This document shows, one piece after another, positions 16,919 through 42,839 of a stretch of 64,000 nucleotides of DNA. The notes beneath the pieces were generated by a model that worked only from the letters and a program-made list of their open reading frames with translations, was not told where the DNA came from and did no database searches. The stretch spans positions 62,001-126,000 of the forward strand of contig JBFMDV010000023.1 in assembly GCA_040753875.1 (NCBI GenBank). Direction: 5' to 3'. Source of the DNA: Candidatus Zixiibacteriota bacterium. GTDB taxonomy: Bacteria > Zixibacteria > MSB-5A5 > GN15 > FEB-12. Made by a program: the position numbers and the translations under genes. The first letter of the stretch is position 1. Every line of letters begins with the position of its first letter.

Positions 16919-16921
16919 CGA

Positions 16922-17035
16922 ATGGATGGCAATTACGTCGCGCTCGCAGTTACGATGGTCGTGTGGATCGGTCTGTTCGTATTCTTACTCCGACTGGACA
17001 AGCGCGTGAAGAAACTCGAGGAGCATAAGTCATGA
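16922..17035 (+). CDS. ccmD: CcmD-like small membrane protein (37 residues)
   Basis: The 37-codon gene begins 3 nt after ccmC and its stop overlaps the ccmE start as ATGA. The product has one membrane helix (VALAVTMVVWIGLFVFLL) and a short positively charged tail (RLDKRVKKLEEHKS), exactly the shape of CcmD, which helps release holo-CcmE from CcmC. Sequence identity in this family is minimal, so size, topology and position carry the call. Confidence 0.85.
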   Translation: MDGNYVALAVTMVVWIGLFVFLLRLDKRVKKLEEHKS

Positions 17036-17472: not shown

Positions 17473-17474
17473 AC

Positions 17475-19889: not shown

Positions 19890-20011
19890 GAGCCTCTCGT
19901 TTCGCCTTCCAACTCGTATCATTAGGCCCCACAGCGAATTAAAGGCGCACTTCAGAGTGGTCTATTGGCCCCAATATTGCCCTAAGATAGTCATTTAGGT
20001 CTATTTGAACC

Positions 20012-20046
20012 TTGACACGAGGTCCAGATTGTTATATTTTTCACAA
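20012..20046 (+). promoter_or_regulatory. Promoter and palindromic operator of the 11-haem cytochrome
   Basis: TTGACA (20012-20017) is a perfect -35 box; 17 nt later TATTTT (20035-20040) can serve as -10. The 18-bp palindrome TTGTTATATTTTTCACAA (20029-20046) covers that -10 region, the arrangement expected for a repressor. It is the same motif as at 5687, 29782 and 41704. The rest of 19890-20137 holds no gene. Confidence 0.6.
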
Positions 20047-20137
20047 AAGACTGGTGATACAACACGATTATCGTGTCGATTACACCAGCTGGGACGGTAT
20101 GAGAGCGATGGCACGACAAATGGACCGAGGTGACTCG

Positions 20138-27284: not shown

Positions 27285-28418
27285 TCATTGAAGCGCTCTG
27301 GCGTGGCACTGGTCGCATCCTTCACCGAACTTGCCGGCTACCGGATCCCAGGCCAACGCAAATGCCTTGTCACTCCCATGCGCTTTATGGCAGGACAGGC
27401 AAAACACACCATTCAGATCCGGGTCGACAACCGTGGCAGACGCATAATCAGCCGCGAAGTGGTTGACGAACCGAAGGCGTGGTGTCGACAGGAAGCCTGC
27501 GCCTGTACCGCCGGACCAGTGAGCCGGGTCAGTCGTCCCACGCGGCTCACCCTGTGTGATATTATTGGTCGAACCGCGCTCCGAATCGTAGGTCGGGTGC
27601 AGGTTGTGAATACCGTTTCCGTTCGGATCTATGTAATAGCTCCCCGAAAACACATGGTGACAATCGGTACACATATTGGTAACCTCCCGCACCGTCGAGA
27701 TGCCGGGATTACCATATCCGATGTTCTGCGATTCATACTTCTGCATACCAGTAGCACCGGCGTTCGTGTACAGCCCGAAATCCGGCTCACCGCCGGGCCA
27801 AGAGGCCCATTGGAGATTTCGAGCCTTGGCGTTACCGTGCGGATTGTGGCAATCGATACACGTCACTGACGCAGTCGCAAACGAGCCGACGAAATGGCAC
27901 CGGTAGCAAAGGTCGTTGGGGTCTGAACTCAGACCATATTCGAGCTTATGGCCACGCGGATTGTCTTCGTTTGCAGAAGCAAAGAAACCGCCGGCACGAT
28001 CGCTCAACCCATTAACATCAGCCCCGACCACGTCAGGAATGCCGGCGAAGCCGTCGTGACACGTCAGGCACAACGCCACCGGGTCGGCGGCCTTAAGCAA
28101 ATGTGGTGAAGGCGTAAAGCTCTGCGGGAACGGTCCAAACGGATCGGGCACGAGAGCGCCGTCGGTCGGGTGCTGAGTGCTGGCGTGCATGACGTGACAC
28201 TGCGAGCAATACAGCGTGGCACCGTTGTGGTAGACATCTCCGGCATCATGAGCACCTAATGTCATGGCGGGTTGACGCGCGGAGGCGCCGCCGGGGTGCA
28301 AAAGAGATCGGGCGGCATTTATATCAGTAAAGCCGTCGGCAAGCGTCGTGACGGAGCCCAGAACAAAACAGACCAGGGCGAACGATGCGAATGCAGTACG
28401 CCGTAGGTGTTTTTCCAT
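27285..28418 (-). CDS. Secreted heptahaem cytochrome c
   Basis: The 377-residue protein has a signal peptide (AFASFALVCFVLGSVTTLA) and seven CXXCH motifs (CSQCH, CLTCH, CYRCH, CIDCH, CTDCH, CLSCH, CDQCH). The order of motifs and linkers (CSQCHVMHAS, then LLKAADPVALCLTCHDG, then CIDCHNPHG, then FCLSCHKAHG, ending CDQCHARAL) matches the two hexahaem cytochromes at 28525 and 36020, so the three are paralogues. There are no membrane helices. A role as a periplasmic or extracellular electron carrier is inferred. It is separated from the upstream cytochrome by a terminator. Confidence 0.9.
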   Translation of the reverse strand: MEKHLRRTAFASFALVCFVLGSVTTLADGFTDINAARSLLHPGGASARQPAMTLGAHDAGDVYHNGATLYCSQCHVMHASTQHPTDGALVPDPFGPFPQSFTPSPHLLKAADPVALCLTCHDGFAGIPDVVGADVNGLSDRAGGFFASANEDNPRGHKLEYGLSSDPNDLCYRCHFVGSFATASVTCIDCHNPHGNAKARNLQWASWPGGEPDFGLYTNAGATGMQKYESQNIGYGNPGISTVREVTNMCTDCHHVFSGSYYIDPNGNGIHNLHPTYDSERGSTNNITQGEPRGTTDPAHWSGGTGAGFLSTPRLRFVNHFAADYASATVVDPDLNGVFCLSCHKAHGSDKAFALAWDPVAGKFGEGCDQCHARALQ

Positions 28419-28449: not shown

Positions 28450-28487
28450 CAAGAAAAGGGAAGGAGAGGGTTGGCCTCTCCTTCCTT
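28450..28487 (-). terminator. Intrinsic terminator of the hexahaem cytochrome gene
   Basis: A perfect 11-bp stem, GGAAGGAGAGG (28459-28469) with CCTCTCCTTCC (28475-28485), is followed on the minus strand by TTTTCTT. Confidence 0.88.
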
Positions 28488-28524: not shown

Positions 28525-29562
28525 TTACAGACCCCGGGTATGGCACTGCTGGCACAGGTTCTTGTATGCCGTGCCGTCGCCGTTCTCACCGAGATCGGCA
28601 GCGCCTGCCGCGAAGATAAGGCCGTACGAATTCTGGTTGCCATGCCCTTTGTGGCACGAGAAGCAGCTCGGAGTCAGGTCTGTCGGAGCGCCGACCCACG
28701 GCGTGCCGTACGTTCCCCAGTTGCCGGAAGCGCTCATCATCTTCACACGATAGGCTAGACCTGCGTAGCGGTTCAGGAAACTCGTGCTCGATAGATCAGC
28801 ATCGGCGGTGGGGTGACGCAGCCACTCGGTGCCATCGTTCATGTTGGCATCTGTCGACGTGCCATGGAAGTTGGTGTGGCACTGCTTGCAGAAGCCGGCA
28901 TAATTAGAGCCGTTGGTGATCGGCTCGTTGAAATCGACGTTGTTTATATCGTAGTGATCGCCGCCCATGGCATTGCTGCGCTCGAAGACGTCCTTAGCGA
29001 GGTCGTTCGTTCCGACGGCATAGCTGACGCCAGGAGCGGTCGACGCCGGGTAGAGGACATATGAACTCAGGTTGCGATAAGAGCCCTTCGGATCAACAGC
29101 CGACGATATCGGTGTACGGCCGTGCACGGTGTGGCAGTCGGCGCAGTTGAGACCGTTGGCGTTGGCCCAGGTGCCGCCCGGGGCGGTCGCCATGCTGCCA
29201 AGGGTGTGGCCAGTAGCGTCGAAGTACGGCGACGTGTTGTCGCGGTTCAGAGCACCGCCCAAACGACCAGAGGTCGGAACAACACCGCCGTTGGCCGTCA
29301 GGACGTCGGGAGCAAAGCTGCTTCCGTCGTGACAAGACAGGCACAGGTCATTGATGTCGTTGCGCAGCAGGTACTCATAGGGACCGGCGGTTCCGAGAGG
29401 AGTGGTGATACCGCCGCCATTGGCGTTGTAGCCGTGGCTGGTGCTGTAGTGCATCACATGGCACTCTTCGCACGCCAGGGTGCTTCCCTTGTGGTAATCA
29501 CCGGCCATAGCCAGTCCGGCGAGGGCCACGAGGGCAATTCCGATTGCGAATAGCTTTTTCAT
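28525..29562 (-). CDS. Secreted hexahaem cytochrome c
   Basis: The 345-residue product has a signal peptide (MKKLFAIGIALVALAGLAMA) and six CXXCH motifs spread along the chain, separated by long glycine/asparagine/serine-rich linkers rather than packed. Extra histidines (HKGSTLACEECHVMHYSTSH, GHTLG) can serve as distal haem ligands. It forms its own transcription unit: a palindromic operator lies about 220 nt upstream and a strong terminator follows. Size, haem number and secretion resemble extracellular filament cytochromes such as OmcS in general design, but I see no sequence proof of filament formation. Confidence 0.9.
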   Translation of the reverse strand: MKKLFAIGIALVALAGLAMAGDYHKGSTLACEECHVMHYSTSHGYNANGGGITTPLGTAGPYEYLLRNDINDLCLSCHDGSSFAPDVLTANGGVVPTSGRLGGALNRDNTSPYFDATGHTLGSMATAPGGTWANANGLNCADCHTVHGRTPISSAVDPKGSYRNLSSYVLYPASTAPGVSYAVGTNDLAKDVFERSNAMGGDHYDINNVDFNEPITNGSNYAGFCKQCHTNFHGTSTDANMNDGTEWLRHPTADADLSSTSFLNRYAGLAYRVKMMSASGNWGTYGTPWVGAPTDLTPSCFSCHKGHGNQNSYGLIFAAGAADLGENGDGTAYKNLCQQCHTRGL

Positions 29563-29989
29563 ACGTGTTACCTTTTTGATACCTCAAAAAATGGCAAGTT
29601 GCGTTGACAAGTAGTCACATCAAGATGTGTGATGTTTCCGGTGATCCTCCTTTCGCCGCGAAGCAGATGAGTATTTCTGACCTTAAGAATTGGCTGGATT
29701 GGATAAATGAATCGAGTGTAGAAATTGGCTACCGAAAGGGCCAAAGAGGTCAATGAACGCCGTTCTTTGCAACGGGCCATATTGTGATATTCTTCACAAG
29801 CCGTCATACTCTATTGGCCTATTCCTGCGTTTTTCCTGGGGTGTCGCCGCAGCAACTATACCCCATAACTATGGTCGAAAAATACCCAAAAGACGAAAGT
29901 TGTCAAGAATAATCTTTGATTATTTTATCTATTTTTAGTCTACTATTCGGTAGGGAATTAAGGGGTTGTGTTCCAATAAAGTACCGGCG
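29563..29989. other. Intergenic region holding the hexahaem gene control site
   Basis: This 427-nt stretch is AT-richer than its surroundings and has no credible gene; the open frame 29568-29807 lacks a start site and family features. It contains the operator at 29782-29799 and, near the minus-strand 5' end of the cytochrome gene, a small CACATC/GATGTG hairpin. A weak hairpin at 29982-29998 overlaps the end of the propeller gene and may end the nine-gene operon. Confidence 0.5.
29782..29799 (-). promoter_or_regulatory. Palindromic operator upstream of the hexahaem cytochrome
   Basis: TTGTGATATTCTTCACAA has both half-sites of TTGTGA-N6-TCACAA exactly. It is the best copy of the motif in the window and matches both Rex and CRP/HcpR consensus forms. 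Confidence 0.65.
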
Positions 29990-30955
29990 CTACCGGTATT
30001 CGAATTTCTGCACCCGCGCGCCCACTTTCTCGACCACGAAGACGATATTCCGGCCGTCGGACGCTATCCCCGATGGGTACCGGTATTCGCCGAGATTGTA
30101 TCCGAATCCCCCGACTTCCGAAATGAAGTTCCCCTTGGCATCAATCACTTTCACGATCTGGCGCAGCGCGTCGCAGAACCACAGCAGCGGAGTTCCGGAA
30201 CTATCGACAGTTACCGTGATTCCCCCGGGGAGAGAAAAATCGGTCTTTTCAACCTCGTGGGCTCCAAATCCGCTCAGATACGCGCCTGATGTATCGAACA
30301 CTTTGATGGCCGGCTTGGCCAGAAGGTCGGTCAGGTAAAGCCTACCCTGGAACTCGGCTATAGCCAGCAGGGTCGTGAAGTCTGATTCACCGGGGCCTTT
30401 CCGACCGATCTTTCGTTTCAACAGGAAGTCCTGATCCAGAACAAGGATTGTCTGGAGGTCACCACCGACCACCACATAGAGGTTGTCCCTATCGTCGACG
30501 GCCAGGGCGTCACAGGTGAGCCGAAGGGTGGTGTCGCCGATGAGCTGGTTCGGGAACACGCGCTGGAGCGGCTCACCACGGAAATCCAGTACATCGATGA
30601 ACTGGGCCAGATTGTCGAGGAGGATTATCTCGCCCCGGCTGTTCGTGACGACCGCCTTAGGTTCGCCGGGCACAAGGCGGTCCGAATCCCGGGACGGGAC
30701 GAAATGTCGAAACGCGAACTTTGGGATGAGATTCTCATCGTAAATGATCACCTGGTTGTGACCACCATCACAGACGAACAACTCCCGTGCCTGGCGGTCG
30801 AAATACGCGGAGCCGGCGCCGCGAAGGGAAGCCCCGCTGCCGTCGTCAAGGGCAATGGCCGTGACGGAGACACGGTCGCGGAAATCCTGTGCCGACAAGC
30901 CGGCAGGAAGCGCATACAGCAGGACGACAATCGCAAGAGATTTCAACGCAGACAT
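29990..30955 (-). CDS. Secreted NHL-type beta-propeller protein
   Basis: The 321-residue protein starts at ATG 30955, 2 nt after the upstream lipoprotein stop; a longer frame to 31120 has no signal sequence. After a signal peptide (LAIVVLLYALPAGLSAQ) come about six blade-like repeats of the kind xFDRQARELFVCDGGHNQV and YPSGIASDGRNIVFVVE. These propellers usually bind partners; no catalytic residues are evident. It is the last gene of the nine-gene cytochrome operon, so a structural or docking role in that complex is the natural inference. Confidence 0.82.
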   Translation of the reverse strand: MSALKSLAIVVLLYALPAGLSAQDFRDRVSVTAIALDDGSGASLRGAGSAYFDRQARELFVCDGGHNQVIIYDENLIPKFAFRHFVPSRDSDRLVPGEPKAVVTNSRGEIILLDNLAQFIDVLDFRGEPLQRVFPNQLIGDTTLRLTCDALAVDDRDNLYVVVGGDLQTILVLDQDFLLKRKIGRKGPGESDFTTLLAIAEFQGRLYLTDLLAKPAIKVFDTSGAYLSGFGAHEVEKTDFSLPGGITVTVDSSGTPLLWFCDALRQIVKVIDAKGNFISEVGGFGYNLGEYRYPSGIASDGRNIVFVVEKVGARVQKFEYR

Positions 30956-30957
30956 AT

Positions 30958-31548
30958 TTACTGTTTGGCGAACGCGGCTGAGAACTTGACGACAGCATCG
31001 GAGACCATCGACCGGGCCAGATTGTCGGCAGAACGGACCGCCCCGAGACCGAATACAACCTCGCCTTTGTCCCCGCTGCCATTCGCGACACCCACCCAAA
31101 TGGTCTTCCCGGTGCTGCATTCTATGAGGCGGGTATTAAACGAGACCTGAGGTGTCCGGCCGAGATAGGTGTTTTCGAATTCATCATATTCGAGCACCGA
31201 CCCGGTGAGCAGGTAATCCAGGTTGAGCAGAGATGCGACGCTGTCAATCTGCTCGTTGGTGATCAAGGCAGCGGAGCGAACCCGGAGTTTTCGCAGCACG
31301 TCGAAGGACTGACCATAGGGGACAGTTTCGTAGCGCGGGTTGGCGGTCATCAACGAATGAAAATAATCGGTCACCTTGACCCCAGCTTTTTCCTTGCCGC
31401 TGAGATTCTCAAACGGCAGGATGGCTATGCGCGGGTGAACCGGCTTGGCCGGTTGAACGATCCTGCGCGCTGTTAGCGAAGAGGAGCAACCGAACGTCAG
31501 CAGCCCGGCCAGGGCCGCAGTGGCGAAAAATACCGTGTGTCTTGTCAT
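30958..31548 (-). CDS. TolB/CsgG/FlgO-like outer-membrane lipoprotein, copy 2
   Basis: The 196-residue product has a lipobox (LTFGC at about residue 21) and then IAILPFENLSG, the opening strand of the TolB-N/CsgG/FlgO group of periplasmic domains. ALITNEQIDSVASLLNLDYLLTGSV and a C-terminal GKTIWVGVANG strand continue the fold. It resembles the neighbouring lipoprotein at 31561 in length and pattern, which suggests duplication. CsgG-type proteins can oligomerise at the outer membrane. Here it probably accompanies the adjacent beta-barrel. Confidence 0.8.
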   Translation of the reverse strand: MTRHTVFFATAALAGLLTFGCSSSLTARRIVQPAKPVHPRIAILPFENLSGKEKAGVKVTDYFHSLMTANPRYETVPYGQSFDVLRKLRVRSAALITNEQIDSVASLLNLDYLLTGSVLEYDEFENTYLGRTPQVSFNTRLIECSTGKTIWVGVANGSGDKGEVVFGLGAVRSADNLARSMVSDAVVKFSAAFAKQ

Positions 31549-31560
31549 GAGCGACCTCGT

Positions 31561-32148
31561 TTACTTCAGAGTGGCGGCAAATGATGCGGCCGCTTCTCGG
31601 CACACCTTGGCCGTCATCTCGCCGAGCGTGTGAGTCTCGCCGAACGAGAAGATGGGGAATTTGGGCCCGCCTTTCCGCGTGATGTCTTCGCTCCACACCA
31701 CTTGTCCGGACTGACAATCGATGAAGCGGATGGTGACCGAGACAAGCGGAAACTCTTCCTGGCCCGAACGGACCATGCTAAAGTCCTTGACGGCTCCGAC
31801 GAACAGTCCCTGCACCTTGGTCACTTCGCCGATCGATTTTACCTCTTCGGCGGTGAGTCCGTCGAGCCAATTGGTGCGGTCCTCTTTCACGATCTGCCGT
31901 ATGGCGCGCACGAAATCCCCCATCGTGGCCACCTGAACTTTGCCACTGATTAGCAGCTCGGTGACCCATCCGGCGGTGACTTTGTCAGAGGCACTGCGGT
32001 CGGCGGACAGGTTCGAGAACGGTACCACACCGACATTGGTGTAGAAACCGAAATCGGCCTCTTCGTTGACATACGTACGGGATCCGGCGCAACCGACGAG
32101 CGGTACGGCCAGCGCCAACAGCATCAGACAAACAGGTGATCGTTTCAT
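31561..32148 (-). CDS. TolB/CsgG-like outer-membrane lipoprotein, copy 1
   Basis: The 195-residue product has a signal peptide with lipobox LVGC and the segment VGVVPFSNLSADRSASDKVT, comparable to CsgG/TolB-N domains. ITKVQGLFVGAVKDF-like strands and DCQSGQVVWSEDITRKGG follow, close in layout to the downstream lipoprotein. It begins 18 nt after the beta-barrel gene. Lipid anchoring plus position suggests an outer-membrane accessory of the electron conduit; there is no haem motif in it. Confidence 0.8.
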   Translation of the reverse strand: MKRSPVCLMLLALAVPLVGCAGSRTYVNEEADFGFYTNVGVVPFSNLSADRSASDKVTAGWVTELLISGKVQVATMGDFVRAIRQIVKEDRTNWLDGLTAEEVKSIGEVTKVQGLFVGAVKDFSMVRSGQEEFPLVSVTIRFIDCQSGQVVWSEDITRKGGPKFPIFSFGETHTLGEMTAKVCREAAASFAATLK

Positions 32149-32166
32149 TCCATATATCCCAGAAAA

Positions 32167-33879
32167 CTACACTTGAATATTCAGTATGGTTTGCAGCGAC
32201 CTGTTGGTCGTCGCGCCGACGGTAAGGCTCGGCGACTTCGTATACAAGTACGAGATCGACAAGGTCGTGCGGCGACTCAGGTACATAATCATCTGCGCGT
32301 TGACGCTCTGAGGGCGGAGCGTCGATCTCTGAAGGACGGTTGGGACGCCGACCAGTTCTTCACGGATCTGTTCCTGCCGGTTCACGGATACGTACATGCT
32401 GAACGCATGCCGAAACGCGTAACTCACATATCCCGTCAGCGAGCCGGTTTTGGTACGGATCGCGGCATTATACGTCGAGTAAATGTAGGTGATATTGACG
32501 TTGATGTTGCTCTCCGGTATGTACGTGACCCCGGCATTGTAACTCTGGGAGTAGCTGTGGCCGAGCCGCAACCGGCTCCCCTGATACAAGGCGCTATAGG
32601 CGAAGCGTGCCTCGGTGGCTCGCGACAGGTTCATGCGGGTGTCGATGCCTCCCGTCATTTGGTAGCGCTGGTTCGGATCGACCGGATCGCTGTTGTGCGT
32701 CAGGGAAGCATCAAGATACGTCTTCATGTAATTGTACGGTCCCATAACCAGGGAACCGTAGTAGGTGTCGAGTGAGTACTGTCCGCGGGAAGTGGTGGAA
32801 TCATCGGCCAGCTGGAGAACGCGGTCGGACTGCTGGAAGACGGTTCGGGTTACCGAGAACCGGGTGTCCACTCCGTTGCGGAGATACCTCGTCATATGGG
32901 ACGAAAACGCGACATACTCCGTGATCTGATTGCGTCCGCTCTCAGTACCGAGTTGATATCCCTTGGTCAGGTCAAACGAAAGATAGCCGGTCGGCGCGAC
33001 ACTCAGCTGACCTGCGAAGATCTCGTTTCGATAATCTCGTGATATCACAACCTGCTCGGTGCGAAAGAACCGCCCGGAGTAACTGGCGTTGCCGTTGAAC
33101 TTGAGCAGCGTGGGCGACGAGTACATGGCGCTGACGGCATGCGTGCGGGATTTGATGCTGAGGAGGTCGTTGTCGTACCGCCGTGTGGTATAGAGACTAT
33201 ACGAAGTATTTATGGTCCCTAAACGGACCGCCGACTTGCTGTAACCGACTGTCGAGCTGAGGGTCCGCGTGTGGTTATCGGTACCGCCTCCTTGCAGGAA
33301 GGAAGCTTTCAACGAGTTGAAGCTGGCTTGATAGGAGAGTCCGTGGTACAGATAGCTGCTTTGCATGACCAGATTGCTGGACCGTGCGTCGCGCGTGTAA
33401 ATGTACCCCTCATACCAGTTTCGGTTCGACGTATAGGTCATCCCGAAGGATGGCCAGTTGGTGTAGCTCGTAGATAAGGAGCTTCTCCAATCCCGGAAGT
33501 GCTGATAGAACAGCCTCGTACCGGCAGCATCAGTCACCAGGCGTCGATACGGTGAGTAACTGGAAGAGATGGTATAACCAAAGCTCCGCAGGTCCAGATA
33601 GAAGATGGGGCGAAACTCGTGATAACTGGAAAAGGAGTATTCTCGCCGGTTCAGGTTCATGCCGAGCCTGAGCTGATTCTTGGTAAACAGGGCATCCTCG
33701 TAATTGAGGATCGCCGATTCCTGCGTCAGATCATCTGTTCGAGTCTTGAACCCCAGGCTATCGGGCGATGTCTCCCGGAGGCGCTGGTAGGAGAAACTCA
33801 GGTTTCCATACAAGCGATCGCCGAGCGCCGATGTTCCAACCACGCATAGCAAAGCCACCAGAATACCAGACCGGAACAT
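32167..33879 (-). CDS. Outer-membrane beta-barrel (porin-like) of the cytochrome operon
   Basis: The 570-residue protein has a signal peptide (GILVALLCVVGTSALG) and then, end to end, alternating aromatic/polar strands such as NLSFSYQRLRE, SFGYTISSSYSPY and NINVNITYIYSTYNAAIR, with roughly two dozen candidate strands and no globular domain. This is what MtrB-, OmbB- or ExtI-like porins of porin-cytochrome conduits look like, although I cannot show homology from memory. There is no CXXC motif at the N-terminus as in MtrB. Its ATG overlaps the stop of the multihaem gene by 1 nt, so the porin and cytochrome are translationally linked. Confidence 0.85.
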   Translation of the reverse strand: MFRSGILVALLCVVGTSALGDRLYGNLSFSYQRLRETSPDSLGFKTRTDDLTQESAILNYEDALFTKNQLRLGMNLNRREYSFSSYHEFRPIFYLDLRSFGYTISSSYSPYRRLVTDAAGTRLFYQHFRDWRSSLSTSYTNWPSFGMTYTSNRNWYEGYIYTRDARSSNLVMQSSYLYHGLSYQASFNSLKASFLQGGGTDNHTRTLSSTVGYSKSAVRLGTINTSYSLYTTRRYDNDLLSIKSRTHAVSAMYSSPTLLKFNGNASYSGRFFRTEQVVISRDYRNEIFAGQLSVAPTGYLSFDLTKGYQLGTESGRNQITEYVAFSSHMTRYLRNGVDTRFSVTRTVFQQSDRVLQLADDSTTSRGQYSLDTYYGSLVMGPYNYMKTYLDASLTHNSDPVDPNQRYQMTGGIDTRMNLSRATEARFAYSALYQGSRLRLGHSYSQSYNAGVTYIPESNINVNITYIYSTYNAAIRTKTGSLTGYVSYAFRHAFSMYVSVNRQEQIREELVGVPTVLQRSTLRPQSVNAQMIMYLSRRTTLSISYLYTKSPSLTVGATTNRSLQTILNIQV

Positions 33880-36023
33880 TAGTAATCCTCGCCGTTCGGG
33901 TGGTGGCAGTTGGCAAAGCAGGTGTTGTTACTGGCGTTCTTCACCCGCCATCCTTTCAGATAGCCGCCCGTAAGGAATCGCGGTGGCTGAGTGCCCGGCG
34001 TGGCTGCACAGGACGGATAGGTAAAGCTGTAACCGTGGATCCGGCCGATCCCCGAGTTGTTGTCACACGCGGGTAGCTGGTCAGTGTCATATATCCCAGC
34101 ATGACAACCGCGACAGGCCATCGTGTTCTGACCCGAACCTGACGGGGAGTTGTGAGGACCTTCAGTGTGTTCTGGGAACCGGGAATTCTGCGCGTTATTC
34201 GTGTACACATTGATGTCGTGACAGCGCCCGCAGAAATTCCGTTGCGAGGTCGCGAAGTTCGGATTCGGCGTGACTTCGCGGAAATAGGTCTCTTCCAGGA
34301 GCATCCCGCTGTTAACGCTCCCGTGACCGCTCGTTTCATGACAGTCGAAGCAACTGATCAGGTCGTGGGTGGTCTGGTTGAATGGCGGAAGCATCAGCGG
34401 CGTGAAATTGTTGGCCGAGCTTGGAATGGTGTACGGATTCACGCCGCGAACCACGACAGGATGGGAAGTGGTGTTACCGGCTGCGAATTGCGCAGCGACA
34501 TTGATGACCGTAGCCTGAGGATCCGAAAACGGCGCCAACGCACTGCCTCCCGGCACCTGAGCCAGAGGAGAGACGGCACCATCGGCATCGTGACATTTCA
34601 GGCAGAACTGGTTCTGAACATCGGTCACCCACGGCTCCAAGAAGGACGAGGACAACTCACGTGTGAAGGAAAGGAATCCCGGCAGAGGGAAACCCGTGTC
34701 CGGATTTCGCAGGTCCACCTGGCCGTTGGCGTGATAGGTCTGATCCGGGGAACCGTTGGCCGGAGATCCCTCGGCATGGCATACGATGCAGTCGCGATTG
34801 GTGATTGTCCCGTTCTGGCCAATGCGTATACCATGATGGCTTGCGAGTCCGAACTCCGGTACGACCGGACGTCTCCCTGCACGCGTGGTGGAGTGGCAAC
34901 TGATACAGTCACCGCCGGGGCTCGGGTTGTGCACGTTGTTGCTCGTGGGGGTCGTATAGTCGCTGCCATGGCAGCTATAGCAGTGAGTCGTGGAGGAAGA
35001 CTGATGAGCGCCGACCGTCGACGGCAGCGGCGCCAGAGTCAACCCCTCGACTGCTCCGCCAAATTGCATATCGGAAGACCGGTGGCAACCGAAGCAGAAT
35101 CGACGAGCCTGAACCGAATCAGTACGGATCGCGGTAAGACCGGCCCAGCCGGACCGTTCATCGCTCAACAGGAAGCCGTTTGGGCCGGCTCCGGCATTGC
35201 CGATACTTCCGTGTGGGTTATGGCAGTCGTAGCAGGGGAGTCGGGCGCCGGACGGCACATATCCGCCTCCGGTCGTGACACCGTGGCCGCTCGACATGCC
35301 GGGATTGACGGAGCGATCGTAGTAATAGGCGATGTTGCGCGAGGCGTCATCCATTCCCGTGGGACCATTGACGTTGTGACACGAGAGGCAAAGCGTGAAA
35401 TTGTCGGCGGCAGTGCCGAGTTGAGAACCGACTATACCGAGGTGTGTGGAGTCAAGCATGTCGTGCAAGGAGGAGCCGCCGTGAACATCATGGCAGTTGT
35501 CACATGCGCCGCGACCGTAGACATCTTTGATCGGCATGTCCGGATCGGCATAGTGCGTCGAGCTAAGCGCATCCTCCCAGATACTGCGCCCGGGCCACCT
35601 GACGAGATTGTTGAGTCCCGGCGTCCGCACACCTCCGGCATTGTATTCGAAATATCCCGGATCGGCGGAACCGACCGGCATACGATCGGATTCCTGTGCC
35701 GGATAGCCGCTCGAAGCACCGGCAGGCCGGTCGGCGTGGCAGCCTCCGAGCGATGCGCTGAAGCATAGTTCGTTCGAATTTTCTCTGAACAGTCCATACG
35801 GTTGCGCATTGCCGTCATCGTGCGAGGAATGACACTGAGCGCAACTTCCGCGCGGATAGTCATTGACTCTGAGCACACCCGTGGTCTGCGATCCATGCGG
35901 TGACAGATAGTAATCCCCGGCGCCTGCCAACGCCGCCGAAACGGCAACGGTCAGGAGTCCGGCCGGCCACCAACGCTGTAGGTAATTTCCAAATGCACTC
36001 ATGATCGCAAACCGGTCTGTCAT
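33879..36023 (-). CDS. Large multihaem cytochrome c (12 CXXCH plus atypical sites)
   Basis: The 714-residue protein has a signal segment (WWPAGLLTVAVSAALAGAG), twelve canonical CXXCH motifs, one CX3CH (CFANCH near the C-terminus) and a CX7CH (CFSASLGGCH near residue 90) that may or may not bind haem. Linkers are long and Gly/Asn/Ser-rich. The chosen ATG overlaps the upstream gene as ATGA; an ATG at 36002 is an alternative. Downstream it overlaps the beta-barrel gene. By analogy to MtrA- or OmaB-type partners it could be the haem wire threading that barrel, but 12-14 haems in a protein this long could also be an external cytochrome. Confidence 0.88.
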   Translation of the reverse strand: MTDRFAIMSAFGNYLQRWWPAGLLTVAVSAALAGAGDYYLSPHGSQTTGVLRVNDYPRGSCAQCHSSHDDGNAQPYGLFRENSNELCFSASLGGCHADRPAGASSGYPAQESDRMPVGSADPGYFEYNAGGVRTPGLNNLVRWPGRSIWEDALSSTHYADPDMPIKDVYGRGACDNCHDVHGGSSLHDMLDSTHLGIVGSQLGTAADNFTLCLSCHNVNGPTGMDDASRNIAYYYDRSVNPGMSSGHGVTTGGGYVPSGARLPCYDCHNPHGSIGNAGAGPNGFLLSDERSGWAGLTAIRTDSVQARRFCFGCHRSSDMQFGGAVEGLTLAPLPSTVGAHQSSSTTHCYSCHGSDYTTPTSNNVHNPSPGGDCISCHSTTRAGRRPVVPEFGLASHHGIRIGQNGTITNRDCIVCHAEGSPANGSPDQTYHANGQVDLRNPDTGFPLPGFLSFTRELSSSFLEPWVTDVQNQFCLKCHDADGAVSPLAQVPGGSALAPFSDPQATVINVAAQFAAGNTTSHPVVVRGVNPYTIPSSANNFTPLMLPPFNQTTHDLISCFDCHETSGHGSVNSGMLLEETYFREVTPNPNFATSQRNFCGRCHDINVYTNNAQNSRFPEHTEGPHNSPSGSGQNTMACRGCHAGIYDTDQLPACDNNSGIGRIHGYSFTYPSCAATPGTQPPRFLTGGYLKGWRVKNASNNTCFANCHHPNGEDY

Positions 36024-36994
36024 TTGTTGTGACATTGCTGACATCCGCTGATAAAGCTGCTGCCGCCTTCGACATACGGCCAGTGCATGGCGTTGGTATT
36101 TGGACCACCGTGAGCCTTATGGCAACTGAGGCAGAAGACATGGTTCGATTCGAGAGGCGTGGCAGCGGTGGTAAAATCCGTTCCCTGTGAATTCACGAAC
36201 GGCAGCCTGGGTATGCCCGCAGCATCACCACCGTCAACAAATCCGGCACCCGTCCCCATGCGCCAGTGGGTCGCATCGGTATGACTGTCCGGCAGCGCCT
36301 GGTTGATCGCAATATCACTGGGATGGCCGTTGAAATGAGCCGGCGGAGCCGACTGGGTGTTGAAGCGCACCAGATCGTGGCACGATGCGCACCAGGCGGA
36401 GTAGTTGGCCGCGTAGGCAACGTTGCTTCGGTCGTAGGCTCCCGCTGAACCGCTTGCCGTGGGTGGATTATCGGGATCCCTTGCGGTAAAGACGTCGCGG
36501 CCAAGGAGAACTTCCAGCGCGCTTCCAGCACCCGCAGGGTCCTCCAGCAGATTGCGATAATTGGCATTGCCGTGGACCGCGTGGCAATTGGAACACTGCA
36601 GTTCCATCGTTACCCCGGCTGCTTGCAGGGGTGTAGCCGCGGGCAGGCCGAGATCGTGACCACCCGCATTCATCGTCAGTACCGAAAGAAAGAAACCCGC
36701 GCTGCTTTCTTTGGCGGGGCTGGACGAATACATCGGGGTCGGTGACAGAACATCGGGGGCGGTCGGGTCGGTGCCATCATGACACGACAGACATAACTCA
36801 TTCACCGTGTTTTTCTTGAGGAGGGCAGAGAACGGGCCACCGGGAATTTCCTGACCACCTTCGGTCCCGTGCCCAACATGGCAGTCGTTGCAAGGGAGTG
36901 AACCGGCGATGTGCCACTGGCCGGCAGTTGCGGAAACCGCCAGCCAAAGGACGAGCGTGGCCATCAGCCCGATAGTGCGGGTCATCGTGATCAT
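36020..36994 (-). CDS. Secreted hexahaem cytochrome c, paralogue in operon
   Basis: The 324-residue protein has a signal peptide (GLMATLVLWLAVSATA) and six CXXCH motifs (CNDCH, CLSCH, CSNCH, CASCH, CLSCH, CQQCH). It shares the sequence plan of the cytochromes at 28525 and 27285: GSLPCNDCHVGHG, NELCLSCHDG with PDVL after it, CHAVHGNANYRNL, FCLSCHKAHG and a terminal CQQCH. Its ATG overlaps the upstream propeller gene stop (ATGA), and its own stop overlaps the following cytochrome. Confidence 0.9.
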   Translation of the reverse strand: MITMTRTIGLMATLVLWLAVSATAGQWHIAGSLPCNDCHVGHGTEGGQEIPGGPFSALLKKNTVNELCLSCHDGTDPTAPDVLSPTPMYSSSPAKESSAGFFLSVLTMNAGGHDLGLPAATPLQAAGVTMELQCSNCHAVHGNANYRNLLEDPAGAGSALEVLLGRDVFTARDPDNPPTASGSAGAYDRSNVAYAANYSAWCASCHDLVRFNTQSAPPAHFNGHPSDIAINQALPDSHTDATHWRMGTGAGFVDGGDAAGIPRLPFVNSQGTDFTTAATPLESNHVFCLSCHKAHGGPNTNAMHWPYVEGGSSFISGCQQCHNK

Positions 36995-37902
36995 GGCAGA
37001 CTGTATAGCAACAAGGTTCCTCGTTCCTCTACAACGATCATACGGTCATTGGCGGTAAAGGCAACCCCCACCGGGTGAAGCAGACCACCTGTAAATGGGC
37101 GTTTCTCGATCTCATTACCCGTGCGATCAAAGAGGCGCCATTGCGATTCGCGCCAGTCGGCTGCCCAAATGATGCTTTGGCGGTCGATGCCCACGCACGA
37201 GGCTTCCCAACTCCGCTCGCCACCGGGTCGACTCCAGCCTGCACTGAATAATACGGAGCCATCACTGGACACAGCCTGCATCGGAAAATTCCGGCTATCA
37301 CTTATCATGACATGCCCGGACGGATCGAGGGCAAGTCCGGTAGGGGACCAGACTCGGCCCCGCCCCTGGCCGTGCGCAAGAAGCAGACGCATGCGTTTCC
37401 AGTCGCTGTCGAACATGACGATCTGGTCCTTGGCGGCATCGAGAACAACGTGATCTCCGCGCGACGTGGTCAACAACTGATCAATGGCGCCGAGTTTATC
37501 CTGGTAGGCGGACAGGTCCGCTACAGTATCGATACTCAAGAGGTCGCGCGAAGATGCTTTCAGGATCTGCAATTTGTCTTTGAGGCTGAAAAGTAACTCG
37601 GTGTCATTGGTCAGACACACCGCGGTGGGGCGTTCAAGTGTCAGATTCTCGCCAATAGTCCAGATTACATGACCCTGTGTATCGAATACGAATAATCGAT
37701 TGCCGTGTTGGTCCGCAACAGCAAAGGCACCGCCGCTGGGAGAGAGACTAATGCTCACCGGTTTTGAGAGCAGTATATGATCATCGACCGATTTGACCTC
37801 CAGCTCGAGAGTCTGAGCGCGGACCGAAGAAGCCGTCAGGGACAATACCCCCAAGAGGAATACCGCTGCCACGCGATTGGGTATGCCGGTAACCGGGTTC
37901 AC
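36991..37902 (-). CDS. Secreted beta-propeller protein (NHL/SMP-30-like)
   Basis: The 303-residue protein begins at GTG 37902, with AGGAG about 11 nt upstream, 12 nt after the 42-haem gene. A signal peptide (AAVFLLGVLSLTASSVRAQ) precedes about six beta-propeller repeats, for instance SISLSPSGGAFAVADQHGNR and GLALDPSGHVMISDSRN. It is similar in design to the propeller that ends the operon. Propellers of this kind accompany multihaem cytochromes in some metal-reducing bacteria; the role (assembly, docking or sensing) is unknown. Confidence 0.82.
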   Translation of the reverse strand: MNPVTGIPNRVAAVFLLGVLSLTASSVRAQTLELEVKSVDDHILLSKPVSISLSPSGGAFAVADQHGNRLFVFDTQGHVIWTIGENLTLERPTAVCLTNDTELLFSLKDKLQILKASSRDLLSIDTVADLSAYQDKLGAIDQLLTTSRGDHVVLDAAKDQIVMFDSDWKRMRLLLAHGQGRGRVWSPTGLALDPSGHVMISDSRNFPMQAVSSDGSVLFSAGWSRPGGERSWEASCVGIDRQSIIWAADWRESQWRLFDRTGNEIEKRPFTGGLLHPVGVAFTANDRMIVVEERGTLLLYSLP

Positions 37903-37914
37903 AATCTGTCGCTC

Positions 37915-40900
37915 CTACTCATCCATGAGTCCGTGGCAGAGAATGCACAGTTTGCGGTTCTTGTCGGCGATCAGCAGCGGCTTGAATTCGGACGAGTGCG
38001 GCGTATGGCAGCCGATGCAATTAACCGGCTGCTTCGTACGTGGATCGGTGGCTTTGTCGCCCATGGGATGGTAATGCTTCTTCGGGGCGTCTTCATGGCA
38101 CGTCATACACAGATCCATGATGTTGGTGTTGGTGAGCAGATTCCTGGACTCGCCCGCATGCGGTTGATGGCACGTCTGGCAGTCTTCAAAAGCCGGCTGG
38201 TGCTTATTCGAACTTGTGAATTCCGGTGTGTTGTGACAAGTCAGACAGGTCTCAGACCCTTCCTTTTTTTGCAACGCCTTGCCGAATCCCACATGCGGGC
38301 CGTGGCATTTTACGCAGCCGTCAGCATCCTTGAGCGGCGCATGCACGACTGCCTTTTGCAGGTCGGACTTGACCGCTTCATGGCAGGTGAAACAGAGCTC
38401 GCGCGAAGAAGCAGCGACCAGTTCCCGTTTGCCGCCTGTCTGATGGCATTTGGCGCAGTTGGCGCCCTCGAACGGTTCATGCATGACGGGCAACAGCAGC
38501 GCCTTGTTCCCTTTGCGCCCGACATGCGAGGCATGGCAGTTCTGGCAATCGGCATCCGCGAGCGGGAAGCCTTGATGAGCTGTGGACATGGCTGCAGTGT
38601 TCAGGTCGTGACAGCCGGCGCAAAGCAGTTGTTTGTTCTTCGTAAGCAAGCCCGGTTCTTTGCCGGCGTGGGGGAGATGGCAGGCCACACACTGGCCGGT
38701 CCGAGCCGGCGTATGCACCAGCCCCTCTTTCATCTGGTTCTTGAGATCCGTGTGACAGCTGAGGCAAAAACTCTCAGCCGGTTTGTTAACCAGTTTCGGA
38801 TAGTTCGAGGCGTGCGGCAGATGACAATCCATGCACTTCCCCTCGCCAAACGGCTTATGCTGGATCGGCAGCTTGGCGAGAAGTTTCATATCCGAGTGGC
38901 ACGTGACACAGAGAGTATTGGCATCGGCCCGCAAATACTTCGGATAATCGGAACTGTGAGCCGAATGGCACGATGTACACTCTCCGGCTTCGAATGGGGG
39001 GTGCTGATGCGCCTGCCCGCTTTCCTTAGTCAAATCGTGGCATGAGGCGCAGATCTCGGAGACTGCGCCGGCCAATTGCACTTTACCCTCCGGACCCACC
39101 GAATGACAGGACTCGCAAGACTTTTCGTCAAACGGCGGATGGTTATTGGCACGAACAAGTTTGGGCTTCTCTGAAATATGGGGATTGTGGCAGTCCAGAC
39201 AGTTGGCCGATGATAGATCGTACCCGCTGTGTTTTGCGGTCAGAGTGGAGTCAATTGTATGGCAGCTGCCGCACAGTGCCGCCGGCGCATCTTTGATGAA
39301 TGCCGCATGGTCCGAACCGTGGGATGAATGACACGCATCACACTGGCCCAGTGCGACCGGTTTGTGCACACCCTGGTGGCGGAACTTCTCTTCCAGCGAC
39401 TCATGACAAGTATAGCACAGGGACGACATCTGAGCCGTAATGGTTGGTGTTCGGCTCAAGGGGATCCCGTTGACTATGACTTTTTGAGCTCGGCCGGTGA
39501 TCAGCTTCTCCTTCATGGCACCGTGCGGATTGTGGCACCCGGCGCAATCCCCCTCGACGACCGGCGTGTGAACAAAGGCCTTGTCGAGGCTAATAGCGGA
39601 ACTATCGTGGCAGCTTAGACAAAGGTCTTTTTCGTGGCTCAAGAGGAGGTTGATCTCCTTCGAATAGTGCGGCACGTGGCATGACAGGCAGTTTTCTGTA
39701 GCCGGCGGGTGCGGCACTTTCATGTTGGTGCGGCTGACAATCTCCGAATGGCATTGGAAACAGAGCTGCGGGCCTTCCTTTCGCACCAGGTGGTCCAAAT
39801 TGCTGTAGTGAGGCGAGTGACAGGCACCGCAATCCTTATTGACATAGGGGGGATGCTGCGATGGCAATCCGGCCATCGCCTGGTCCGGTTCGTGGCAATC
39901 GGCACAAAGCTGGTCGGACGGTTTGCGCAGGATGTTTGCAGTTTGTCCCTGATGCGGATGGTGGCACTGCAGGCAGTCATCGGCGCCGGCATGAACGGAT
40001 TTCGCGGCGTCTTTGGCCGTCGCGAATTCTTTGTGACAGTCCAGGCAGAGTGAGGCATCAGCCTTTTTGACCAACGCCTTGTGATCCGAGCCGTGAACCT
40101 CGTGGCAGGCGCCGCACTGACCGCTGACAACCGGCATATGCGGCGTGCGTCCGTCCCCCTTGATGATCTCACCATGACATTCGGCGCACAGTTTCGATTC
40201 TTCCTGTTTGAGCAGATGCGGATAGCGCGAGGAATGCGGCGAATGACAATTGTTGCAGTTGTCCGGCTCGACCGCGGCGTGGGGAAACGCCTTTTTGCTC
40301 CCCTCAGCTTGGTCAGAATGGCAGTTAGCACAAAGATTTCCCGGCGTGACACCTTCGGCGAACGCAACTTTACCTGTCGTGTCCGGCAGGGAGTGGCACG
40401 ACTCGCAATCGCCGGATGCAAACGGCGCATGACTGGTTTCGGACATCAGTCCTTTGGTGCTGGTGGAATGGCCAGAGTGACAGTCGATACAGGCAAGGTT
40501 TTCGGTATGCTTGCCGGCATGTGCCGTCTGAATGTTCTTCTCGGAGGCCTTGTGGCAGGCCGCGCACAGTTGATTCGGGGAGGATGTAAGAAGGGCAGGG
40601 TGGTCGCTGTTGTGCGCGTTGTGACAGGCTATACAATCGAGCTTTGCAAAAGGCTGATGCGGCACGGTTCCATTCAAAGCGCCTGTCAGGTCATCCTTAT
40701 GGCACACCAGGCAGGCATTGGGATCATCGGCCCCCTCCGGACCGGTACGCAGAAGCGCGTGTTTGTCGGATGCGTGCGGATCATGGCAATCCCAGCACGC
40801 TCCTTTTTCCACAGGAAAGTGAATCTGGCCTGTAGAAAACTTCTCCTTCGCATCCTGATGACAGGAATAACAGAGATTGGAGGTCTCGTCAGTGAGAATC

Positions 40901-41115
40901 AGCTTGTTGGCAAAACCGTGGCGCTTGTGACAGGTTTCGCAATTCTGCTCTTTGACGGGCTGATGGATGCTCTTTTTGGAACTGAACTCTGCCTGCTGTT
41001 TCTTATGGCAATCGTAGCACTTTTTGGCGGCTTCTGCGGACGGGACCGCCAGCAACAGAATGAGCAGACCTGCCCGCACGACTGCGTCTATCCGTAACGT
41101 CCGGTCGGATTTCAT
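37915..41115 (-). CDS. 42-haem c-type cytochrome
   Basis: The 1066-residue secreted protein (signal peptide AGLLILLLAVPSAEA) contains 42 CXXCH motifs by direct count, about one per 25 residues from residue 33 to the end. The motifs alternate in a roughly 50-residue unit: LCxxCH, then a histidine and proline pair (HxP), then CxxCHxPH, then LL before the next LCxxCH. This is the doubled-CXXCH pattern repeated about 20 times, which indicates growth by tandem duplication. There is no membrane segment after the signal peptide. Nearly every motif is followed by a further histidine, so bis-His ligation is likely. A long haem wire in the periplasm or outside the cell is the natural inference. Confidence 0.95.
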   Translation of the reverse strand: MKSDRTLRIDAVVRAGLLILLLAVPSAEAAKKCYDCHKKQQAEFSSKKSIHQPVKEQNCETCHKRHGFANKLILTDETSNLCYSCHQDAKEKFSTGQIHFPVEKGACWDCHDPHASDKHALLRTGPEGADDPNACLVCHKDDLTGALNGTVPHQPFAKLDCIACHNAHNSDHPALLTSSPNQLCAACHKASEKNIQTAHAGKHTENLACIDCHSGHSTSTKGLMSETSHAPFASGDCESCHSLPDTTGKVAFAEGVTPGNLCANCHSDQAEGSKKAFPHAAVEPDNCNNCHSPHSSRYPHLLKQEESKLCAECHGEIIKGDGRTPHMPVVSGQCGACHEVHGSDHKALVKKADASLCLDCHKEFATAKDAAKSVHAGADDCLQCHHPHQGQTANILRKPSDQLCADCHEPDQAMAGLPSQHPPYVNKDCGACHSPHYSNLDHLVRKEGPQLCFQCHSEIVSRTNMKVPHPPATENCLSCHVPHYSKEINLLLSHEKDLCLSCHDSSAISLDKAFVHTPVVEGDCAGCHNPHGAMKEKLITGRAQKVIVNGIPLSRTPTITAQMSSLCYTCHESLEEKFRHQGVHKPVALGQCDACHSSHGSDHAAFIKDAPAALCGSCHTIDSTLTAKHSGYDLSSANCLDCHNPHISEKPKLVRANNHPPFDEKSCESCHSVGPEGKVQLAGAVSEICASCHDLTKESGQAHQHPPFEAGECTSCHSAHSSDYPKYLRADANTLCVTCHSDMKLLAKLPIQHKPFGEGKCMDCHLPHASNYPKLVNKPAESFCLSCHTDLKNQMKEGLVHTPARTGQCVACHLPHAGKEPGLLTKNKQLLCAGCHDLNTAAMSTAHQGFPLADADCQNCHASHVGRKGNKALLLPVMHEPFEGANCAKCHQTGGKRELVAASSRELCFTCHEAVKSDLQKAVVHAPLKDADGCVKCHGPHVGFGKALQKKEGSETCLTCHNTPEFTSSNKHQPAFEDCQTCHQPHAGESRNLLTNTNIMDLCMTCHEDAPKKHYHPMGDKATDPRTKQPVNCIGCHTPHSSEFKPLLIADKNRKLCILCHGLMDE

Positions 41116-41124
41116 GCGAGGTCC

Positions 41125-41661
41125 TTACTTTGCTGCCGGGACTTTGATGTACTTGTCGGGAACGCGGTACTCGACTATGCGGAAAGCAAAGTAGGCATTC
41201 CTTCGGAAATGCGGTGAGCCGCCGATATTGAACGCCCAGCTTTCCTGCTGAGTGCGGCCGTTGGAGACAACGCGTACATGCACGGCCGGGTTGATGAGCG
41301 AATCGGACACCTGAATTACCCGACCACTGTCGGAGATGCTGAAATCCGGATTGAAAGCATACACGTAAGCCGTGTCTTTCTCTTCTTCACCGAGCACGAA
41401 CGACTGGCCGAAGTACACCGAATCAGTCTGCAGGAAGTTGGCGAAGATACGGTGGCGGGTCTCGATTATAAACCAACCGGCAGCAGAGTCCAGTTTGGGA
41501 ATCTCGGCGATTGGTTTAGGCGTCGTGTCGACCATGGGAGTGTGAGCGGCATCCATAGGCATCTGGGGACTGCCGGTGCTGGGATGCTGGGCAGATATAA
41601 AGGAGGCGGAGATCAATATTGCGATCCCCGCCATCAAGCCGGTGAAGGAAATCCGTTTCAT
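41125..41661 (-). CDS. Secreted protein of unknown function, first gene of cytochrome operon
   Basis: The 178-residue product starts at ATG 41661 with AGAGG 4-5 nt upstream. It has a signal peptide (GLMAGIAILISASFISAQ), a Pro/Thr-rich linker (to about residue 55) and a beta-rich domain with NPAVHVRVVSNGR and FRIVEYRVPDKYIKVP. The NPAV-V segment faintly recalls the soluble domain of ResB-type cytochrome biogenesis proteins, but the match is too thin to name it. It has no cysteines, so it does not bind c-type haem. It heads the operon, 43 nt from the operator and 9 nt before the 42-haem gene. Confidence 0.75.
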   Translation of the reverse strand: MKRISFTGLMAGIAILISASFISAQHPSTGSPQMPMDAAHTPMVDTTPKPIAEIPKLDSAAGWFIIETRHRIFANFLQTDSVYFGQSFVLGEEEKDTAYVYAFNPDFSISDSGRVIQVSDSLINPAVHVRVVSNGRTQQESWAFNIGGSPHFRRNAYFAFRIVEYRVPDKYIKVPAAK

Positions 41662-41703: not shown

Positions 41704-41721
41704 TTGTGAAAAAGATAACAA
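41704..41721 (-). promoter_or_regulatory. Palindromic operator of the nine-gene cytochrome operon
   Basis: TTGTGAAAAAGATAACAA is identical over all 18 bases to the site before hemA (5687-5704), although the flanking DNA differs. It sits 43 nt upstream of the first start codon, within reach of the promoter. Confidence 0.65.
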
Positions 41722-41925
41722 ATTCGGTCCGGTTGTCAAGCAGTATTTGGACCTTATTATCGCTCTTTGAAGTCGCTGACATTCGCACGACTGACAATCT
41801 ACTGGATGTGCATCGGTACGGCAATACTTGTCACCGCAATATCTTACGGCATGCCCAAAATATTCAATGGAGAGCGCGATGGTCGATTCAATCGGGTGAA
41901 ATATGTACGAATTTGTGCAGATTCG

Positions 41926-42714
41926 CTATTCGAAGTAATGGCAGGCTCGGCAAAGATCGTCCTTATCTTTGAATCCGGCCAAATGGTGCGGAAGCGGTGA
42001 ACTCAACGAATGACAGGTTTGGCACTCCATGCGGTTGTCAAACAACTGAACGCGGGGATCGAGCTGTTTCAACAGTCGTCTGCCATCGCGTCCGCCGCTT
42101 GGGACGACCCGAACGCCCACCGGGTGGCTGCCGTGCTCGGAGAACCGAGGCGCTTTGGACATGGCCGCTGAAAGCTCGGGTGTTGAGATCGACTGCTCTG
42201 AATGGCACACAAGACAGGTCTGTGACGGGGTGAGCGCGCCTACGATTCGGTAATCTGTGTGATATAATCTCGCCGCCGCCTGGTGTCCCTCGGAAAGGGA
42301 TGCAAGCTGCTGATCGAGGCCGTGGCACGCACGGCATTGACTCAAACGGTTTCGCTGTTCAAATCTCATCAGGAACTGGCGATCGCCGACGGTGATGCCC
42401 ATCGGTTCGTGGAAAGAGTGGCACTCGCGGCAAGGTCGGCTGCTGTTCTGATGGAACGAAAGCGAGTTGGACTGGTCAATCCGGACCAGGTTGGTATGAC
42501 ATGATCGGCATTGAGTGTCGAAGTCGGGCATGGCAGCATTGCCGTCGCCAACAGAAGCGACGACCGCGTGGCACCGGGAGCAATCGATATTGAGGTGGCT
42601 GGCGACCGACGATTCGCCGGCGTTTCCCTGATGGACGCGGGGAAGAAAGACAGCCGTCAGCAAAAGACCGATCCAGGTCGTGAGGGCAGTGAGCAGTACC
42701 AGAGGTCGACGCAT
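41926..42714 (-). CDS. Heptahaem cytochrome c
   Basis: The 262-residue protein has an N-terminal hydrophobic segment (LVLLTALTTWIGLLLTAVFL), which may be an uncleaved anchor, and seven CXXCH motifs (CSRCH, CRSCH, CRECH, CRACH, CLVCH, CQTCH, CRACH). Spacing is regular, about 25-45 residues, and sequence style differs from the 27285/28525/36020 group. An ATGTT-N6-AACAT inverted repeat (42721-42736) lies just upstream of the ATG and could be regulatory. It is transcribed in the same direction as the nine-gene operon but separated from it by 264 nt carrying that operon's operator. Confidence 0.88.
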   Translation of the reverse strand: MRRPLVLLTALTTWIGLLLTAVFLPRVHQGNAGESSVASHLNIDCSRCHAVVASVGDGNAAMPDFDTQCRSCHTNLVRIDQSNSLSFHQNSSRPCRECHSFHEPMGITVGDRQFLMRFEQRNRLSQCRACHGLDQQLASLSEGHQAAARLYHTDYRIVGALTPSQTCLVCHSEQSISTPELSAAMSKAPRFSEHGSHPVGVRVVPSGGRDGRRLLKQLDPRVQLFDNRMECQTCHSLSSPLPHHLAGFKDKDDLCRACHYFE

Positions 42715-42767: not shown

Positions 42768-42839
42768 TACCCCCGACAGGAATCGAACCTGTATTCCCAG
42801 CTCCGGAGGCTGGTGCGTTATCCATTACACCACGGGGGC
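42768..42839 (-). tRNA. tRNA-Arg (anticodon CCG)
   Basis: The 72-nt cloverleaf on the minus strand has acceptor GCCCCCG/CGGGGGT (first pair G-U), D stem GTGT/ACGC, anticodon stem CCAGC/GCTGG with loop CTCCGGA, and T arm ACAGG-TTCGATT-CCTGT. Anticodon CCG reads CGG. Confidence 0.95.

Follow-up and report, generated by a model that had tools for sequence, protein, structure and literature searches.

The window analysed here is a 64,000-nt stretch from a Candidatus Zixiibacteriota bacterium (contig JBFMDV010000023.1, positions 62,001 to 126,000). Nine tightly packed open reading frames (ORFs) in its ORF list, running from nt 41661 to 29990 on the minus strand, encode a small secreted protein (G1), three multihaem cytochromes (cyt42, c6 and c12), two NHL beta-propellers (prop1 and prop2), an outer-membrane beta-barrel and two lipoproteins (lpo1 and lpo2). 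This locus is probably a diverged osc/oet-type cluster, the products of which would export, anchor and charge a filament of hexahaem cytochromes similar to OmcS. The sequences themselves establish the homologous counterpart of each core part, the order of the genes, and the equivalence of the 42-haem cytochrome to a 26-haem plus 16-haem pair, with the fusions forming one clade. What is new is the fused 42-haem form within a known kind of cluster.

An initial annotation of this DNA had proposed a nine-gene extracellular electron-transfer operon of new composition. All nine ORFs were found where it had placed them, with short gaps or overlaps (9, 12, −4, −25, −1 (TAATG), 18, 12 and 2 nt, from G1 to prop2; the −25 nt overlap of c6 and c12 becomes −4 nt with the c12 start at 36023). 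The described products were also recovered. The 42-haem and hexahaem cytochromes carry exactly 42 and 6 CXXCH motifs, the ‘12–14-haem’ cytochrome combines 12 canonical motifs with one CX7CH and one CX3CH site, both propellers contain NHL repeats, and the two TolB/CsgG-like lipoproteins have lipoboxes and weak Pfam matches to LpoB and GNA1162/CsgG. Paired-CXXCH domains were likewise found among the operon proteins by Pfam, while G1 and the barrel gave no Pfam match. The description as an electron-transfer operon held in that a conserved, secreted multihaem unit with a large barrel occurs in many genomes. The novelty of its composition did not hold, as the barrel, lipoproteins, propellers and OmcS-like cytochromes match the osc/oet block (osc for omcS companion) of Geobacter and Desulfobacterota, and the 42-haem protein matches its 26-haem and 16-haem pair, encoded there by two adjacent genes. 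The OmcS-like nature of the hexahaem proteins had been missed, and this shifts the reading from a fixed porin–cytochrome conduit to a nanowire-assembly locus.

The 84 cysteines of cyt42 all lie in its CXXCH motifs, and the haem count is exactly 42 in every uninterrupted, full-length homologue, even at 37% identity. When the window protein was aligned with the concatenated 26-haem and 16-haem cytochromes of L047, a locus from another phylum, all 42 haem columns coincided; with those of locus L050, 41 of 42 were shared, the remaining site being C-X4-CH. Judged by these alignments, cyt42 is the 26-haem and 16-haem pair of the osc/oet block in one chain. Among 132 genomes of the window's phylum, some carry the fused gene and others the split pair with an adjacent isomerase gene, and no listed genome had both forms among the five candidates scored per genome. 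An unrooted tree of 38 concatenated or fused sequences grouped the fused proteins in a single clade (100/100), and the split proteins of the window's phylum formed a clade of their own (100/100). Fusion rather than splitting is the inferred direction, because the split form is more widely spread. Outside the window's phylum, a lipobox was recognised by eye in 15 of 16 26-haem proteins (an automatic count gave 12/27 overall, but its pattern missed some and misread one). No convincing lipobox was found in the split proteins of the window's phylum or in any fused protein, so the lipid anchor appears to be missing from both forms there. Two interrupted copies were seen, a 42-haem gene broken into 18 + 22 haems (L154:8367-11490) and a 26-haem gene broken into 7 + 17 (L141:8092-10019); these may be assembly errors or real splits. 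No report of a 42-haem cytochrome was seen among the 20 of 63 papers listed in a literature search, but this did not cover Shen et al. 2025, so an earlier mention of the fused form is possible.

A chain of this kind could itself be a trans-envelope wire, with its halves on opposite sides of the outer membrane and threaded through the barrel. In the Oet clusters of sulfate reducers, OetA is placed in the periplasm and the lipoprotein OetB outside (PMC10553843). If these are the 16-haem and 26-haem proteins, a correspondence that is assumed, then the fusion would have to cross the membrane, and the retention of all 42 haem sites in all uninterrupted full-length copies would also suit such a wire. 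However, haems 26 and 27 of cyt42 are separated by a short linker with no special segment, and for both OscI and OscJ of Geobacter the listed location, a predicted one, is the periplasm (PMC13194489). Threading is considered distinctly improbable.

The counterparts of the remaining genes became visible through other phyla. Loci retrieved there via c12 encode a 26-haem and a 16-haem cytochrome in neighbouring genes, accompanied by a propeller and an OmcS-like protein; in L047 a prolyl isomerase, a barrel and LpoB-like lipoproteins are encoded as well. L050 carries the title Thermosulfurimonas, and in its phylum the L047 barrel found matches in 37 of 297 genomes. Sixteen neighbourhoods from this phylum show the order barrel–lipoprotein–(~490 aa)–lipoprotein–isomerase–26-haem–16-haem–propeller, or the part of it within the stretch, with some variation, and their two cytochromes have 26 and 15–16 canonical motifs. 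This block is the eight-gene block GSU2500–GSU2493 of Geobacter, in which GSU2495 (OscI) has 26 haems (PMC12977616). Roles proposed in Geobacter are folding for OscH, secretion for OscE/F/G, and shaping (morphology) of OmcS wires for OscD (PMC13194489, PMC12977616). The letters D–K were assigned to genes by order, while OscC, OscI and OscJ are named by locus tag in the papers. The D-E-F-G-H-26-16-propeller blocks of the L050 phylum, together with the split versions in the window's own phylum, support the osc-type reading. Beside the osc block in the L050 phylum there are also pairs of 12-haem cytochromes, mostly with a propeller near (L091:3746-5507, L097:6930-8634, L105:2336-4189 and L101:2610-4284).

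Profile comparisons by hhalign (unrelated controls ≤1.3%) matched the barrel to the OscD set (99.1%, E 1.6e-18, 526 columns), lpo1 to OscE (99.95%), lpo2 to OscG (99.9%), and prop1 and prop2 to OscK (99.5% and 99.8%, respectively). The two lipoproteins match each other's families too, so their assignment to OscE or OscG rests on the better score and on gene order. The position of prop2 after lpo2 is conserved. The AlphaFold2 model of the barrel (pLDDT 85.2, pTM 0.66) bears out the annotated outer-membrane barrel, with ~28 strands if 515–521 and 524–535 are one bent strand. MtrB was among its best Foldseek matches and was the best cytochrome-related one (TM 0.51/0.46). Matches to TonB receptors and LptD were set aside as general barrel similarity, MtrB being merely the most relevant.

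OmcS was the best match in the Protein Data Bank (PDB) for the profiles of c6 (E=3.9e-9), of the downstream hexahaem cytochrome up6a (E=7.7e-5) and of the OmcS-like set from another phylum (E=4.9e-18). Profiles were required, as single-sequence PDB searches of up6a, c6 and c12 gave no match. Against the OmcS-like set, hhalign gave 99.9% for c6, 99.8% for up6a and 99.3% for the next gene, up6b, and these three proteins are OmcS-like by such comparisons. Cytochrome profiles cross-match somewhat (c6 against the x8 cytochrome, 97.6%), so the assignment leans on the PDB searches. The second histidine of the N-terminal CXXCHxxH is invariant in the alignments of up6a, c6 and Desulfobacterota OmcS-like proteins (H38 in A4, H42 in A5 and H36 in A6), and we take it to be the equivalent of OmcS His16, which bridges subunits in OmcS.

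Both up6a and up6b recur with the nine-gene block, so the unit extends past the nine genes and the annotated limit was too narrow. In the fused loci whose sequence reached that far, up6a lies downstream of prop2, and up6b is also present in L024, L026 and L027. The gap between up6a and prop2 is ~430 nt, and TGACAA is invariant in 7/7 aligned intergenic regions, followed in most by a TATTTT-like element. A conserved promoter of its own fits a subunit made in excess, and up6a is the candidate main filament subunit. Between up6a and up6b there is a strong terminator-like hairpin on the minus strand (nt 28459-28485; 11 pairs, 7 G-C), and transcription of up6b may be far below that of up6a.

The barrel was present in 13/98 relatives, where it aligns with that of the window at 18–44% identity. 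The order G1–cyt42–prop1–c6–c12–barrel–lpo1–lpo2–prop2–up6a is maintained, with prop1 and/or c6 absent from the most distant families, and the genes recur mostly at 33-67% identity. The same genes recurring in the same order indicate more than chance, and the locus is not confined to one strain, a possibility that the initial annotation had named as part of what would refute its proposal. G1 opens the block in L015, L019, L020, L021, L024, L025, L151 and L154-L156. Named relatives are metagenome-assembled genomes (MAGs) of Zixibacteria/GN15, and MAGs labelled Eisenbacteria and Gemmatimonadetes show a permuted order. A query with the barrel alone against named genomes found no match, whereas the c12 profile did retrieve named relatives.

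The place of c12 bears on a second alternative, a fixed porin–cytochrome conduit of the type put forward in the initial annotation. Here c12, or its 7-haem module, would sit inside the barrel, the 42-haem and hexahaem proteins would act as partners, soluble or at the surface, and no filament would be made. The adjacency of c12, barrel and lpo1, in that order, in fused-type loci (the permuted Eisenbacteria loci included) would suit such a conduit, as would a barrel in the size class of MtrB and the description of Oet clusters as porin:cytochrome conduits (PMC10553843). Yet the barrel profile had no PDB sequence match at E≤10, to a solved conduit barrel or otherwise, the c12 profile matched no solved porin–cytochrome part in the PDB, and the three OmcS-related neighbours point to a filament. 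c12 consists of a conserved N-terminal 7-haem module and a lineage-specific C-terminal half. Its CX7CH is likely a genuine haem site, since L025 has a canonical CYHCH there, and around its first haem c12 is similar to the x8 cytochrome of osc loci (98.4% by hhalign over 66 columns). The AlphaFold2 model of the N-terminal module (pLDDT 36.6) was too poor to judge barrel insertion. Relatives of c12 occur in actinobacteria with no barrel detected nearby, making c12 less likely to be a universal barrel plug; that role is weakened by these comparisons, and the conduit as a whole is unlikely, though it deserves some weight.

One of these relatives, from Thermoleophilia (L042:8087-11845), has 15 CXXCH and shows homology to c12 in both halves (37% across residues 120-714); its neighbours on a 4.6-Mb contig are ORFs with 20 and 10 haems and a propeller, and no barrel of this kind was detected near it. 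The 7-haem module also recurs in giant actinobacterial cytochromes. In Coriobacteriia/Actinobacteria MAGs (L036:2741-15097 and L043:2-15355), ORFs of 4118 and at least 5117 aa carry 75 CXXCH each and several c12 modules, and are possibly cell-wall-spanning cytochromes of Gram-positive bacteria.

Under the preferred osc/oet-type reading, electrons would leave the quinol pool, perhaps via a protein encoded elsewhere in the window, an 11-haem cytochrome with a fused membrane domain of the cytochrome b561 type. The secreted 42-haem protein would conduct them onward on the periplasmic side to the OmcS-like subunits (up6a, c6 and up6b), which would be assembled at the outer membrane. Exit and anchoring would be provided there by the large barrel together with the two lipoproteins, the propellers may be assembly or docking factors, and c12 is probably a surface or exit-side cytochrome joining barrel and filament. 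The 11-haem/b561 protein is a plausible inner-membrane quinol partner (quinol oxidase), as a relative with 50.5% identity is encoded directly downstream of up6b in L032. In the window, its gene follows cytochrome c assembly genes (CcmC/CcmF-like) within nt 16265-22111. At roughly 1 nm per haem, the spacing in dodecahaem structures, the length of cyt42 could exceed the periplasm. A more specific version, in which cyt42 is a single-molecule wire bridging the periplasm into the barrel, coupling filament base, wire and quinol protein without diffusible cytochromes and replacing the OscI lipoprotein anchor and the OscH/OscF steps, is doubtful.

Several observations weigh against a filament-assembling osc-type cluster. 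An OmcS-like sequence is no proof of filament formation, and among the Geobacter homologues of OmcS, wire formation is known for OmcS alone (PMC12977616). The barrel and OscD are 12% identical over the profile alignment, and c6 is missing from the f5 loci and from L025. No OscH-like isomerase was found in the fused loci searched with an OscH query or among the window operon ORFs; the best OscH-like gene of the window genome is on another contig (E=6e-52), and the absence is thus local. OscF (~490 aa) is missing between the OscE and OscG equivalents, lpo1 and lpo2 being 12 nt apart; lpo2 shares a domain with OscF (hhalign 99.5%). The many haems, a 42-haem protein without a lipobox and the lack of a cell-surface lipoprotein cytochrome could even describe a periplasmic electron store or detoxification system, with no electron transfer outside the cell. 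The conserved outer-membrane barrel and lipoproteins, the OmcS-like subunits, and homology to the osc/oet clusters, which have been tied to extracellular electron transfer, make this highly improbable.

The features are listed in Table 1. The cytochrome gene dn7 is loosely linked to the operon; it adjoins G1 in L024, and in L149 and L150 it is next to the 16-haem gene. A tRNA gene (nt 42768-42839) immediately precedes dn7 on the strand they share and may mark an insertion boundary of the cluster.

Table 1. Genes and promoter-like sites of the 42-haem cytochrome locus (window coordinates).
Feature	Position	Strand	Description
G1	41125..41661	-	Small secreted protein, no known family; 178 aa from second start; ORF to 41679
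cyt42	37915..41115	-	42-haem c-type cytochrome, OscI(26)+OscJ(16) counterpart in one chain; cleavable signal peptide, no lipobox
prop1	36991..37902	-	Secreted NHL beta-propeller, OscK-like; PF01436
c6	36020..36994	-	OmcS-like hexahaem cytochrome; 6 CXXCH
c12	33879..36023	-	Cytochrome; 12 canonical CXXCH + CX7CH + CX3CH haem sites
barrel	32167..33879	-	Outer-membrane beta-barrel, ~28 strands, OscD-like
lpo1	31561..32148	-	Lipoprotein, OscE-like (LpoB/CsgG-like fold family); lipobox; weak PF13036
lpo2	30958..31548	-	Lipoprotein, OscG-like; lipobox
prop2	29990..30955	-	Second NHL propeller; PF01436; start 30955, ORF extendable to 31120
up6a	28525..29562	-	OmcS-like hexahaem cytochrome, candidate main filament subunit; 6 CXXCH
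up6b	27285..28418	-	OmcS-like 7-haem cytochrome; 7 CXXCH
dn7	41926..42714	-	7-haem cytochrome, loosely linked; 7 CXXCH
Promoter-like site of nine-gene operon	41712..41739	-	TTGACA-16-TATCTT, extended -10; consensus match only
Promoter-like site of up6a	29879..29906	-	TTGACA-16-TATTTT
11-haem cytochrome–cytochrome b561-type membrane domain fusion	20012..22111	+	PF14522, PF01292; 11 CXXCH

These results would place an osc/oet-type nanowire cluster in Zixibacteria-type bacteria, which are uncultivated and implicated in subsurface iron cycling (PMC8478452), and in the related MAGs labelled Eisenbacteria and Gemmatimonadetes. The fusion can be read as a Rosetta stone, suggesting that the 26-haem and 16-haem cytochromes together are one functional unit of 42 haems. 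If so, both should be found on one face of the outer membrane or span it as a single chain, and the same-side expectation bears on published models in which the two conduit cytochromes are separated by that membrane. A shorter list of parts for filament assembly, without OscH or OscF in the locus, also emerges and would be attractive for heterologous reconstruction.

Of the known systems, the osc cluster of G. sulfurreducens (GSU2493-GSU2504; Shen et al. 2025, as relayed in PMC13194489 and PMC12977616) shares with the window a large barrel, two LpoB/CsgG-like lipoproteins, 26 + 16 haems, an NHL propeller and adjacent OmcS-like hexahaem genes. The window differs in that the 26-haem and 16-haem parts are fused and have no lipid anchor, OscH and a separate OscF are lacking in the locus, a second propeller, G1 and c12 are added, and the gene order is different. 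The OetABI cluster for direct interspecies electron transfer, from sulfate-reducing partners of methanotrophic archaea, likewise combines a porin with multihaem, OmcS-like and other extracellular cytochromes, but is described with separate OetA (periplasmic) and OetB (extracellular lipoprotein) (PMC10553843). MtrCAB and the Geobacter Omb/Ext conduits also encode a barrel of similar size class with multihaem proteins, whereas the barrel and c12 profiles of the window have no sequence match to the solved members. The OmcS nanowire (PDB 6EF8, 6NEF) resembles the window proteins in being hexahaem, in the N-terminal CXXCHxxH, and in a profile match over most of the chain. The OmcS-like proteins of the window are shorter (precursors of 324-345 aa, against a chain of 407 aa) and are divergent paralogues.

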